Origin: Flavobacteriales bacterium
GTDB lineage: Bacteria; Bacteroidota; Bacteroidia; JACJYZ01
Assembly (NCBI GenBank): GCA_020435415.1
Contig: JAGQZQ010000032.1
Location: 1-33,011, forward strand
DNA: 33,011 nucleotides
Direction: 5' to 3'
Under the pieces are notes generated by a model. That model was not told the DNA's origin. It did not search any database and was given only the letters and a program-made list of their open reading frames with translations. A program made the position numbers and the translations under genes. This document shows, piece by piece, positions 5,608 through 9,623 of this stretch (positions within the stretch are counted from its first letter, which is position 1; each line of letters begins with the position of its first letter).

Positions 5608-6816
5608 ATGATCAGAAAATCATTCAAAATCATTTTCCGGACCCTGGCAGCAATCGCCTCATTCTTCGCGCTGATCTATACCGGATGCAACACCGGAAAC
5701 AACATCTATATGTTTCCGAAAGAGGCGTCATTTACCGGCGATCAATATTACAATCCTTACCGCGGGTGGGATCATGAAAAAACACGCTTGTGCAATTTTC
5801 ACGCACACGCCAGGGCATGGGGTGGCATCACCAACGGGCATGACAGCCGGGAGTATATCAGGGAGCGCTACAAGCAGGCAGGATATGACGTGTGTGAAGT
5901 TTCGGACTACTTCCACATGTCCGAAGAAGAAGAACCCAATGCCATTATCTCAGTGTATGAACATGGCCTGAACGTAGGCAAACACCATCAGCTGGTGCTT
6001 AATGCACCTGAAGTGAACTGGAAGGAATTTCCCCTGGCACAGTCCATCCATAACAAACAAACAGTTATTAATTCAATCCGGGAAGACACCCAGGCCGTGG
6101 TTGCATTGGCTCATCCGGCATTCACCGTCGGTTATTCTGAAGATGACCTGAAAAAATTGACCAACTATCACCTGATCGAAGTCCTGAATCACCGGAAATT
6201 TTCCTTTAAAGAATGGGATGCTGCCTTATCTGCGGGCAGACCTGCATTTCTGATCGCCGATGATGATATACATGACCTGAGCAGCATGAGCTACTTCACC
6301 CGGAACGCCACCCTCATTTCATCGCCTACCCTTGAAAAAGATTCTTTGCTTAACAATCTGACCCGGGGAAATGCCCTGGGTGTTGAAATATACATGGGTG
6401 ATGGGGAAACACTGGAAATGCGGCGGCAAAAGATACTTGACATGGAACAACTGATATCCGCAAAAATGGCAGGAGACACATTCAAGGTAAGTCTTTCACA
6501 CGTGGCAGACACGGTGAGGTTTTATGGTAGGGAAGGTCACCTGATGAAGCGATTGCACAACACCAAACTTGCAGATTATCCTTTCGATCCGTCAGACCCA
6601 TACATTCGAACGGTGATCGACTTTCCATCCAGGAACCAGATGTACCTGAACCCGGTTCTCAGAACCACCGGTGGAAAACCCACCATGCCAACGGTTCAGA
6701 CAGACCGGCTCAATACACTGCTATACCGGACGATGATGTTTCTGGCTTTTGCCAGTATCCTGATCCTTTGGATTCGCTGGTTGAGAACGAAGTTTAAAAC
6801 GAAGGGCAAAACATAG
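5608..6816 (+). CDS. Membrane-tethered PHP-domain metal-dependent hydrolase
   Basis: A 402-residue protein with a PHP (polymerase and histidinol phosphatase) fold. Metal ligands appear in the expected order: HAH (His65, His67), Asp100/His103 in SDYFHM, Glu135 in LNAPEVNW, His169 in LAHPAF, and DIH (Asp220, His222). PHP enzymes generally cut phosphate esters with two or three metal ions; the substrate here is unknown. The N-terminus has one hydrophobic stretch (residues 11-26, LAAIASFFALIYTGC) that is either a membrane anchor or a poor lipobox ending at Cys27. A second hydrophobic segment near residues 375-392 ends in basic residues. The catalytic domain is thus probably held in the periplasm by one or both ends. 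Transcription probably continues from yjbQ. Its 3' end overlaps the convergent PorP gene by 23 bp. Confidence 0.78.
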   Translation: MIRKSFKIIFRTLAAIASFFALIYTGCNTGNNIYMFPKEASFTGDQYYNPYRGWDHEKTRLCNFHAHARAWGGITNGHDSREYIRERYKQAGYDVCEVSDYFHMSEEEEPNAIISVYEHGLNVGKHHQLVLNAPEVNWKEFPLAQSIHNKQTVINSIREDTQAVVALAHPAFTVGYSEDDLKKLTNYHLIEVLNHRKFSFKEWDAALSAGRPAFLIADDDIHDLSSMSYFTRNATLISSPTLEKDSLLNNLTRGNALGVEIYMGDGETLEMRRQKILDMEQLISAKMAGDTFKVSLSHVADTVRFYGREGHLMKRLHNTKLADYPFDPSDPYIRTVIDFPSRNQMYLNPVLRTTGGKPTMPTVQTDRLNTLLYRTMMFLAFASILILWIRWLRTKFKTKGKT

Positions 6817-7759
6817 TCCGGAATTTCTTCGGTCGGTTTTTACACTCAAATAAAAACGACAGTGATAATTCATGAGCGCCTGCACTGAAAGTGGCCAGTT
6901 TGCTTATGGTAGCATCATATGTATAACCGAGCTGGTACTTATCTCCCTTTAAACCAACGGTTAGAATGACTGCATCACGTTCGATCATGCGCGACCAGAT
7001 GCCAAAGACCAAAGGTTCCTTATCCCAATACAACCCCATATTCAGTTGCTTAAAATCTCCCTGGCGTTGGTAGATCACATTCGGCGACAAACTTGGCCGT
7101 TTGTTCCCGTGTTGATAGAAATTCATACCGGCGTGGATGGTGTACTTCATGGGAAGCTTGCTTTCACCAAGGTTCATAAACGCTTCATCGGGTTCCGTCA
7201 GGTGATGCACGGCCACACCACCAAAAATGTGTTTGTTATTGATCACGATGCCGGAGGAAATATCCACCATGCTTTTTGAATCCACCGGGCGCTGCTCCTT
7301 TGTGTTCCACATCAATCCCATCTTTGGATCCAATTGATCTCCAAAGATCAGCTTATCCCAATCCAGCGTGCGCTGAATAAATGCAGCCTGAACTCCGAAC
7401 TGAACTTTTGTACTCCGTGTGATATCCTGGTGGTACGAATACATGGCCGCTGCCTGATGTACCGTGTAGGTCGACTGTCCCGCCTGGTCACGCAGAATAT
7501 AAAACCCCAATCCACCTTCGGCAGACTTTACATACTGATCATAACTGGCGGATGCGGTCACGAAATTACCCGACAATGCAGGCCACTGATTGCGGTAATT
7601 CATATGCAGCGAAGGACATCGAGAAGAGCCTGCCATGGCAGGATTCAGGTATAGTGGATTCGCATAGAACTGGGAAAAATGGGAGTCCTGGGAATAACAT
7701 TCGCTCCGGAAGGCCATAGTCATTATAACAGCCGCCCCCAATAAGTACATCTTCTTCAT
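6794..7759 (-). CDS. PorP/SprF family outer-membrane protein (type IX secretion-associated)
   Basis: The product begins with a signal peptide (MKKMYLLGAAVIMTMAF, cleavage probably after ECYSQ). It continues with the diagnostic PorP/SprF opening DSHFSQFYANPLYLNPAMAGSS, then alternating beta-strand-like segments ending near the C-terminal aromatic SLSFLFECK, as expected for a barrel. Family members work with T9SS components or in surface export and attachment of particular cargo such as SprB. No gldKLMN or other secretion genes lie nearby, so this is an orphan copy that may serve one cargo. The frame extends to an ATG at 7783 and a TTG at 7786, which would add MKTKICVL before the signal peptide; I prefer 7759 because it gives a standard n-region. 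Confidence 0.87.
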   Translation of the reverse strand: MKKMYLLGAAVIMTMAFRSECYSQDSHFSQFYANPLYLNPAMAGSSRCPSLHMNYRNQWPALSGNFVTASASYDQYVKSAEGGLGFYILRDQAGQSTYTVHQAAAMYSYHQDITRSTKVQFGVQAAFIQRTLDWDKLIFGDQLDPKMGLMWNTKEQRPVDSKSMVDISSGIVINNKHIFGGVAVHHLTEPDEAFMNLGESKLPMKYTIHAGMNFYQHGNKRPSLSPNVIYQRQGDFKQLNMGLYWDKEPLVFGIWSRMIERDAVILTVGLKGDKYQLGYTYDATISKLATFSAGAHELSLSFLFECKNRPKKFRTMFCPSF

Positions 7760-7918
7760 AAGAACGCAAATTTTGGTTTTCATCAATCACTCATAATAAA
7801 GGTCCGGGCGTTAGTGATATTCCACAAACAACACGACATCTCATGGGAAATCGCTGGTTTTCAATCTGTATACCATTGGTTATGAAGAGGCTGATAACGG
7901 TATTATCCGATTTTTAGA

Positions 7919-7926: not shown

Positions 7927-7977
7927 CGTTTGGTATGGAAAGGAAGTCAATACCTTCCCGTAAGAGAAATTGGGATT

Positions 7978-8538
7978 ATGTCTAAACGTTCACCTGTTTC
8001 AGATCAGGAACTGATCGAAATGTACAGGAACTCCCACGACCTGAAATACGTCGGAGAGTTGTACCAGCGATATACCCATATCATAACCATCATCTGTCTG
8101 AAATATCTCAAGAACCAGGATGATGCCCAGGATGCGGCCATGGACTTGTTTGAGGTCCTATGCAGAGATCTGAAAAAACACCAGGTAAAGCAATTTAAAT
8201 CCTGGCTCGCCACCGTCACCAAGAATTTATGTATCAAGAAGTTACGCCGATCCAGCCACGATGATCTCAAGGAAGGGATGGCCGTTGCGGAAGAAACGGT
8301 TGTGGAAATCTCAGGTGTCATGGACCCTAATGTTATCAAAGAGGAGCAGTTGAGCCGGTTGGAAAAGCTGATTGAGGAAATTCCCGCAGAACAGGCCACA
8401 TGCATTAAGCTGTTCTATCTGGAAGAAAAGAGTTATGAAGACATTGCGGGTATCACCGGATACTCCATGAATGAGGTCAAAAGTTATTTACAAAACGGAA
8501 AACGCAACCTTAGAATAAGAATGCAAAAGCCCTCCTGA
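7978..8538 (+). CDS. ECF-type RNA polymerase sigma factor
   Basis: The 186-residue product has sigma region 2 at about residues 22-92 (LYQRYTHIITIICLKYLKNQDDAQDAAMDLF, then FKSWLATVTKNLCIKKLRR) and region 4 at about 125-182 (LEKLIEEIPAEQATCIKLFYLEEKSYEDIAGITGYS, a helix-turn-helix). Regions 1 and 3 are absent, as in extracytoplasmic-function sigma factors. The acidic linker at residues 94-125 is normal. The frame reaches back to a TTG at 7924, but the ATG at 7978 gives a standard N-terminus (MSKRSPVSDQELIEMY). The stop codon shares one base with the ATG of the next gene (TGATG), so the sigma factor and its membrane partner are translationally coupled. Confidence 0.9.
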   Translation: MSKRSPVSDQELIEMYRNSHDLKYVGELYQRYTHIITIICLKYLKNQDDAQDAAMDLFEVLCRDLKKHQVKQFKSWLATVTKNLCIKKLRRSSHDDLKEGMAVAEETVVEISGVMDPNVIKEEQLSRLEKLIEEIPAEQATCIKLFYLEEKSYEDIAGITGYSMNEVKSYLQNGKRNLRIRMQKPS

Positions 8539-9623
8539 TGCAGGACGCACTGAAGAACATATTAACCGATAGGTCTTGCCTGAATATGGAGGAGTTGTAT
8601 GGCTATGCACAAGGCACGCTCTCCCCTGAAATCAAGCACAGCGCAGAATCGCACTTATTGGATTGTGTACTATGTAATGAAGCGCTTGACGCAATCAAGG
8701 AAGTAAATCAGGCAGATGCGGATCTTCTTTCACAAAAGGTGAACCAGGCCATTGAGAAACAAAGTGGATTCTCTCAGGGTGGTTTTGACGTCAGGAATAA
8801 AAGCTGGTTATGGATCGGGTTGGCGATAGTGGCAGGGATGGCATCCCTTCTATCGTTGTTGCCTGACGGGGGCGACACAGATGATACCGTCCCTGAATTA
8901 AACAAACCTTACTATGTAGATCGCGCTTCGCGAGAAAACCATCTGGATGACTTCGCCGACGAATGGACAATTACAGATACTTCTGCCATTAACGCAAGTG
9001 ACAGTCTGCAAGACCCAACGCCATCCGAAACCGGAATGGTTGAGCAGTCCGACCAAAAAGAAATTCAATCTGAAAAGGCCACTGATGCCAATGACAAGAA
9101 AAACAAGAAAAATCAGGCCAGCTTAGAAGGTACCGGGCAACAGGTTACAGAAAAAGACCAGGCAGACAATACGTCGATCAATTATATCCAGGAGATTGAC
9201 ATATTCAGAAGAGAAAACCTTGATAAACGCAAGATCAAAAAAGGAGAAGAGGATACGGCGGGAGGCAAAGCATATTCCGTACTGTTTGAAGAACCCGACT
9301 CCTATAATGCCGAAGGTATGCCTGCGTTTAAAGGAGGTGACGGCCGTCTCAAACAATACCTGGAAGGAAAAATCACACCAACGGAATCGATAACCGCAAA
9401 AGGTCAACCCGGATCCGCCATTGTAAGTTTTGTAATCAATCCGGAAGGACAACTATCTGAAGTCACCCTGATGAAGGGGATCGATAGCGACTATGACCAA
9501 CAGATACTGAAGGCCATCAAAGAAATGCCATCCTGGGAACCGGCAACCAGAAAGGAAAAAGAAGGGTGGGCAAAATACACCCTGATGTTCAAAATCCAAA
9601 AGGAAAATACATCCCGGCAATAG
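8538..9623 (+). CDS. Membrane anti-sigma factor with zinc-binding N-terminus and TonB-like C-terminal domain
   Basis: The N-terminal region contains a Hx3Cx2C motif (His39, Cys43, Cys46), the signature of zinc-associated anti-sigma domains that sequester an ECF sigma factor in the cytoplasm. One transmembrane helix follows (about residues 90-108). Then comes a long, polar, low-complexity periplasmic linker (about 110-260, rich in Asp, Lys, Gln and Thr). The C-terminal 95 residues resemble the TonB C-terminal domain: MPAFKGGDGRLKQYLEGKI, GSAIVSFVINPEGQLSEV, and MPSWEPATRKEK. This topology (inside zinc domain, one helix, outside TonB fold) suggests that contact with an outer-membrane partner could signal release of the sigma factor. 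That mechanism is inference. The gene starts within the sigma stop codon; no TonB-dependent receptor is present nearby. Confidence 0.82.
   Translation: MQDALKNILTDRSCLNMEELYGYAQGTLSPEIKHSAESHLLDCVLCNEALDAIKEVNQADADLLSQKVNQAIEKQSGFSQGGFDVRNKSWLWIGLAIVAGMASLLSLLPDGGDTDDTVPELNKPYYVDRASRENHLDDFADEWTITDTSAINASDSLQDPTPSETGMVEQSDQKEIQSEKATDANDKKNKKNQASLEGTGQQVTEKDQADNTSINYIQEIDIFRRENLDKRKIKKGEEDTAGGKAYSVLFEEPDSYNAEGMPAFKGGDGRLKQYLEGKITPTESITAKGQPGSAIVSFVINPEGQLSEVTLMKGIDSDYDQQILKAIKEMPSWEPATRKEKEGWAKYTLMFKIQKENTSRQ

Follow-up and report, generated by a model that had tools for sequence, protein, structure and literature searches.

Some zinc anti-sigma factors sense redox; the C-terminus of ChrR is cupin-like, a kind of domain that RsiW does not have. 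According to the available portion of one report (PMC7406223), a class I anti-sigma gene accompanies only 6% of the ECF sigma genes of Bacteroidetes, and the control of the remaining Bacteroidetes ECFs is left open. Dma1 and Dma2 of Bacteroides consist of an anti-sigma domain, a helix, a disordered tether and an envelope domain; as the accessible text describes them, their sigma gene is adjacent and they are found in Bacteroidota only (PMC13088901). A TolA/TonB-like fold has been described in VreA of the Pseudomonas PUMA3 system, which the excerpted source presents as a separate periplasmic signalling protein (PMC2729926). Here, we describe a gene pair from a Flavobacteriales bacterium that is best explained, with a probability of roughly 0.6, as a sigma/anti-sigma switch whose inhibitor has a built-in TonB-domain envelope sensor.

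The window, by which we mean the whole stretch of 33,011 nucleotides that was analysed, carries a sigma gene at 7978..8538 on the + strand. Its 186 aa product is an ECF sigma factor with regions 2 and 4, matching Sigma70_r2 (35 bits, cut-off 24) and Sigma70_r4_2 (43.1 bits, cut-off 25.7) in Pfam and TIGR02937 (73.1 bits, cut-off 42.9) in NCBIfam. The adjoining ORF (8538..9623, + strand) shares its first base with the end of the sigma stop codon, a one-base overlap, and encodes a membrane anti-sigma factor of 361 aa with a TonB-like C-terminus, as assigned from the ORF and its domain matches. Following a gap of 401 bases, a GH3-family gene (PF03321; 10025-11563) lies 3′ of the pair. The same genome (G000) has a second pair on contig C49 (L057, 2164-3931), in which a sigma factor of 193 aa, 43% identical to that of the window, overlaps by 8 bases an anti-sigma factor of 397 aa that reaches 16.2 bits for TonB_C, under the cut-off.

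When the window protein was searched against 395 genomes of the class, full-length matches were among those listed, and the sigma gene was directly upstream at all 13 of the first loci fetched, which came from relatives and from the window's own genome. A scan of a genome-contig collection with the same protein found no relative. At E <= 1e-5, a profile of the N-terminus matches at least 149 of the 395 class genomes sampled and at least 34 of the 296 genomes of a phylum sample that overlaps the class sample. The family examined comprises 152 loci, 139 of them distinct; one locus, L254, has a broken anti-sigma frame and resembles L098, with the same motif letters, so it is not independent of L098, which was counted as not TonB-tailed. 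A sigma ORF (profile E <= 1e-3) lies upstream on the same strand in 138 of the 139 distinct members, all of which had been retrieved with the anti-sigma protein as query rather than with sigma. The two genes overlap in 107 of the 138 pairs, and 133 pairs are spaced within −35 to +40; an overlap of exactly one base occurs in 10, so there is nothing special about the one-base overlap that the sequence-only reading had singled out as noteworthy. The combination of an anti-sigma domain with a TonB domain, which the same reading had thought worth a look, is common in the class and not rare. The pair belongs to a large modular family and is not an oddity.

Further evidence that each inhibitor is matched to its neighbour came from the co-variation of the two proteins. 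Distances among sigma factors correlate with distances among anti-sigma N-termini (rho 0.49; none of 500 permutations exceeded 0.16). Moreover, a sigma factor fitted its own anti-sigma factor better than one swapped in from the same genome in 21 of 21 comparisons from 19 genomes, although these comparisons are not independent, many of the genomes being from one family. The swap test and the sigma tree covered 119 of the 139 pairs. Together with the upstream sigma gene, this cognate pairing upholds the earlier proposal of an anti-sigma factor coupled to its own sigma factor, and the co-variation would fit binding and inhibition of that sigma factor by residues ~10-76.

The anti-sigma label would be weak from the window protein alone, since its N-terminus reaches only 12.3 bits (E 0.19) against zf-HC2 in Pfam, below a cut-off of 22.2 that is the detection threshold of a 35-position model and not a defining property of the class. 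The same model matches 8 of 14 aligned proteins at E <= 0.1, the window protein not being among the eight, and the L057 paralogue scores 18.1 bits (cut-off 22.2). It is the family, together with a fold match to ChrR, that establishes the N-terminus (residues 10-76; 8565..8765, + strand) as a class I zinc anti-sigma domain, as had been read from the sequence. In a model predicted from 44 sequences, a block at residues 21-50 has pLDDT 93-95. The best of the VIA-align comparisons of this N-terminal model is with ChrR (2z2s_F; Z 8.2, rmsd 3.8, 63 aligned residues), ahead of RslA (3hug_B; Z 6.8) and RsiW (5wuq_C; Z 5.7); such Z values are middling by themselves for a small helical domain, and the assignment is carried by the motif together with the gene pair and the family.

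The likely zinc ligands span 8577..8675 on the + strand: C14 (8577-8579), H39 (8652-8654), C43 (8664-8666) and C46 (8673-8675). We take these to fit the four-ligand pattern of zinc anti-sigma factors, as in the ligand sets of RsrA and ChrR. Only His39, Cys43 and Cys46 had been named in the sequence-only reading; their positions were right, and its zinc motif was incomplete in overlooking Cys14. All four residues, along with Y23 and E37, never vary in an alignment of 14 proteins that includes the window's. Across the family, position 14 is C in 107 of 139 members and H in 11. The arrangement Cx20-28Hx3Cx2C was found in 42 of the 51 TonB-tailed members, and Hx3Cx2C is absent from 5 of the 51. 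Zinc is therefore not required throughout the family, in agreement with the mixing of zinc and non-zinc members among class I anti-sigma factors noted in the portion of PMC7406223 available to us.

Past the zinc domain, the protein has one hydrophobic helix only (residues 90-108; 8805..8861, + strand), with a KD mean of 2.06. Basic residues precede it and acidic residues follow, and a single helix with these surrounding charges places the N-terminus inside. The predicted model has the helix at 89-106, so the single membrane helix proposed from the letters is borne out, as is the polar linker of about 150 residues behind it. This linker (residues 111-258; 8868..9311, + strand) is mostly predicted to be disordered, with pLDDT mostly below 50, and its composition is polar. 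Within it, two models predict a beta strand at residues 216-228 (9183..9221, + strand), ahead of the TonB-like domain; this strand could be a built-in mimic of a TonB box that pairs with the TonB-like sheet. One of these, the second fold model, used 44 of the 51 TonB-tailed proteins.

The C-terminal domain itself (residues 259-357; 9312..9608, + strand) scores 31.2 bits for TonB_C (PF03544; cut-off 24.6), and the domain was found by the genome search as well. Its model matches TonB from the FoxA complex (6i97_D) with Z 9.2 and rmsd 2.1 over 89 aligned residues, and a block of pLDDT 87-97 extends across residues 261-350. The TonB-like C-terminus suggested by the sequence-only reading is thus supported by profile and by fold, while a profile check of both ends gave a divided answer, with TonB_C over its cut-off and the N-terminus under that of zf-HC2.

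A rival reading of these parts is that the TonB domain is a working arm, coupling to ExbB/ExbD and both energising and reporting on outer-membrane receptors. The domain keeps P-x3-GG and the MPxWxP common to TonB-like tails, and its top structural match is a TonB from a receptor complex. The membrane helix tells against this. A His and FE[WFYIL] signature in the helix was used as a proxy for docking to ExbB/ExbD, and neither element occurs in the helix of any TonB-tailed member for which one is predicted, 48 of the 51 in all. By the same proxy, FE[WFYIL] is present in 7 of 11 TonB-like ORFs at other loci that have an early helix (within the first 45 residues) and a proline-rich stretch (>=9% Pro in residues 51-150). 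The linker, with 5 Pro in 148 residues, is not the proline-rich linker of TonB. Moreover, the window's genome carries two separate TonB-like genes with the signature, L001 and L004, the second of which has FE[WFYIL] and 7% Pro and is additional to the 7 of 11. We regard a working energy arm as very improbable; it was dropped as the leading idea on the helix and the linker, and with the signature missing in 48 of 48 members and so few prolines, the earlier suggestion that the protein needs no separate energy transducer is not supported. TonB-dependent receptor plug domains occur at 19 places in the genome, and none of these is on the window's contig (C32) or on C49. The helix, the linker and the lack of a receptor plug on the contig lead us to read the TonB domain as a binding domain rather than a motor-driven arm.

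The architecture search across genomes showed that the zinc anti-sigma domain recurs with a TonB tail, which a locally built profile finds in 51 of the 123 members of at least 200 aa; Pfam by itself finds it in 42 of the 123 (E <= 1e-3). This classification left out the 16 members, of 139, that are shorter than 200 aa, among which are anti-sigma factors of ~120-135 aa consisting of the domain and helix only (L059, L064, L065, L066, L069 and L070); Hx3Cx2C is absent from 8 of the 16. Of the TPR models, TPR_2 is the one met most often among the 72 long members that have no TonB tail, half of which (36) match it; L105, L117 and L144 are examples of long sister anti-sigma factors in which the local profile finds no such tail. 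CarbopepD_reg_2 occurs in 6 of the 123 long members. It is not one of the 25 families, out of 27, that were shown for the 72, and it therefore accompanies TonB tails in most or all cases. On the sigma tree of 119 pairs, a quick tree with many weak inner branches, no fewer than 10 changes of the TonB label are required, and starred branches force 3 of these; shuffled labels require 36.9. The TonB tail is therefore clustered on the tree, yet it was gained or lost more than once.

In an alternative reading, the tail serves as a structural tether or for dimerisation, and the signal enters elsewhere, for example at a cytoplasmic zinc/thiol site. The C14/H39/C43/C46 arrangement is compatible with such a site, TPR replaces TonB in related pairs, the 16 short members do without a long tail, and the consulted part of PMC7406223 ties cytoplasmic zinc anti-sigma factors to redox sensing. 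The same part of that report also argues for a possible structural role of zinc in the membrane-bound members (PMC7406223). In addition, no part past the helix is better conserved than the TonB-like domain, and in all 51 TonB-tailed proteins this domain stops no more than 16 residues short of the C-terminus; a mere spacer would not need a TonB-like domain so conserved and so fixed in place. A passive tail thus appears unlikely, and we favour a tail that senses.

Evidence on what the sigma factor might control came from the regions upstream of the sigma genes, scanned for 135 of the 139 members. Close relatives of the window have TRTGGAA-N15-CCCT in common. A strict form, TGGAA-N14..16-CCCT, occurs upstream of sigma on the forward strand at 9 of 50 TonB-tailed loci and on the opposite strand at 11 of the 50, where shuffled sequence gives 0.16 and 0.20, respectively; the other 70 long members have 0 forward and 1 reverse copy, and the 15 short members none. 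The strict form is confined to the 14-member sigma clade to which the window belongs, being found in 12 of the 14 and in 0 of 121 loci outside; in the quick tree, this clade has an SH-aLRT of 94, not enough for a star from the tool. A relaxed form that admits N16 is found in 14 of 14 and in 1 of 121, and on both strands in 10 of the 14, window included; this pattern was broadened after the window had been seen, and the 121 loci outside the clade are its control. The window's own copies carry N16, so the strict motif is not present there. Between the two genes of the window, over 251 bases, the relaxed motif has 2 copies (shuffle mean 0.006), and it has 5 in the window as a whole.

The two copies may be promoters that face in opposite directions. 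The candidate promoter of the sigma operon, TATGGAA-N16-CCCGTA (7934..7962, + strand), has a −10 part that differs from CCCT, and its leader would be very short. The other, TGTGGAA-N16-ACCTTT (7798..7826, − strand), faces a divergent gene of the PorP/SprF family (6794..7786, − strand; PF11751, 205.6 bits), which is a candidate target. From its sequence pattern, we consider the clade-specific motif to be the predicted promoter of the sigma factor. Genome-wide scans for TRTGGAA-N15-CCCTWW gave 30 copies in ten f37 genomes, 19 of them at the sigma locus and 11 elsewhere; since a reversed pattern gave 9 copies in the same ten genomes, the off-locus copies are near background. The clade's predicted regulon is therefore almost confined to the locus, and a wide regulon, sought by this pattern scan of the ten f37 genomes, was not found. 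Six genomes outside the clade have 7 copies. One of three copies is at the locus in G030, and G102 has one copy, off the locus. No match to the TRTGGAA-N15-CCCTWW pattern was found genome-wide in the window's own genome.

A PorP/SprF gene is likewise divergent from the sigma pair in G102 (L207, 4236-5405), which belongs to a different family from the window, and a motif copy with N15-ACCTAA faces it. The PorP/SprF proteins of the window and of G102 are of the same subfamily and are mutual second-best, not best, matches. PorP/SprF is a plausible target by analogy with Porphyromonas gingivalis, where an ECF sigma factor acts on type IX secretion genes, as stated in the part of PMC4800418 available to us. 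At the ten f37 loci (L197-L206), the opposite-strand motif instead precedes a divergent gene that, as read from sequence, encodes a small peptide resembling a lipoprotein, in which a PSC/ASC-type cysteine occurs together with C(D/E/G)AY, such as LPSCK with CDAYQGS or CEAYS; examples are L200 7580-7870 and L203 6078-6329. Beyond the small peptide gene, L203-L206 have an apparent sensor kinase and response regulator, also divergent. Apart from PorP/SprF in G102, the neighbourhood is not kept past close relatives: no neighbours conserved across families were found in 20 neighbourhoods and the window, one of the neighbourhoods (L215) holding no member.

The switch that we propose draws on the domains, fold, coupling, cognate co-variation, recurrence, tail exchange and clade-specific motif found by computation. 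The zinc domain (residues ~10-76) would bind the ECF sigma factor and keep it at the inner membrane, and the helix and the flexible tether of ~150 residues would place the TonB-type domain in the periplasm, where its ligand may be a strand or a peptide from some partner in the envelope. With the signal running inward, altered binding of the partner would loosen the hold on sigma or lead to proteolytic cleavage of the inhibitor. The freed sigma factor would then be active at promoters like TRTGGAA-N15/16-CCCT, which would point towards the sigma operon itself on one side and, on the other, towards a divergent envelope gene, in the window that for PorP/SprF.

A more specific version can be offered, tentatively and with considerable doubt, in which the un-energised TonB domain competes with the real TonB for TonB boxes or envelope strands, so that the busyness of the outer membrane sets the release of sigma. 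With TPR domains standing where TonB does in related pairs, this would be a modular envelope-sensing family of the Bacteroidia, and the clade's sigma factor would drive little besides the sigma operon itself and a single divergent envelope gene.

The order of parts also invites comparison with Dma, in which case the anti-sigma factor would be tethered across the periplasm to the outer membrane and freed by strain or by a missing partner. The part order is the same in the available text of PMC13088901, and release by strain would be an inferred step. Dma, however, ends in a beta-barrel, and the window protein in a TonB fold; any contact with the outer membrane must therefore go through a partner. 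A Dma-like strain release seems improbable on these grounds, and the sensor reading, with a TonB domain that binds an envelope partner, is preferred.

No description of a zinc anti-sigma/TonB fusion was found in a literature search by title and beginning of abstract that took in few subscription papers; within the literature so searched, the family is undescribed. It is a class I anti-sigma family matched in at least 149 of 395 genomes of one class, with interchangeable TonB or TPR sensor ends, and it offers a testable candidate route for Bacteroidia to sense their own envelope. The clade-specific motif and the divergent target gene make the sigma switch directly testable by reporter.

The closest described systems each share part of this arrangement. 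Like ChrR, RslA and RsiW, the window protein has an N-terminal helical zinc domain and adjoins its ECF sigma gene; unlike them, it has a TonB fold as its periplasmic end, past a tether of ~150 residues. Its C-terminal domain resembles that of the TonB energy transducer in sequence (PF03544) and in fold, but the protein adds a cytoplasmic anti-sigma domain, its helix is without the signature, and its linker is not rich in proline. It resembles Dma, as described in the accessible text of PMC13088901, in having an anti-sigma domain, one helix, a disordered tether, an envelope domain and an adjoining sigma gene, and differs in ending in a TonB fold where Dma has a C-terminal beta-barrel. No FecR domain appeared among the Pfam matches of the window protein to E 10, a search in which HMMER filters drop weak matches. 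With FecI/FecR-type signalling and with VreA of PUMA3, as far as the excerpted PMC2729926 describes it, the pair shares an ECF sigma factor, a membrane regulator and the involvement of a TonB/TolA-like fold. In PUMA3, that fold sits in the separate protein VreA, whereas the window protein carries the TonB fold itself.
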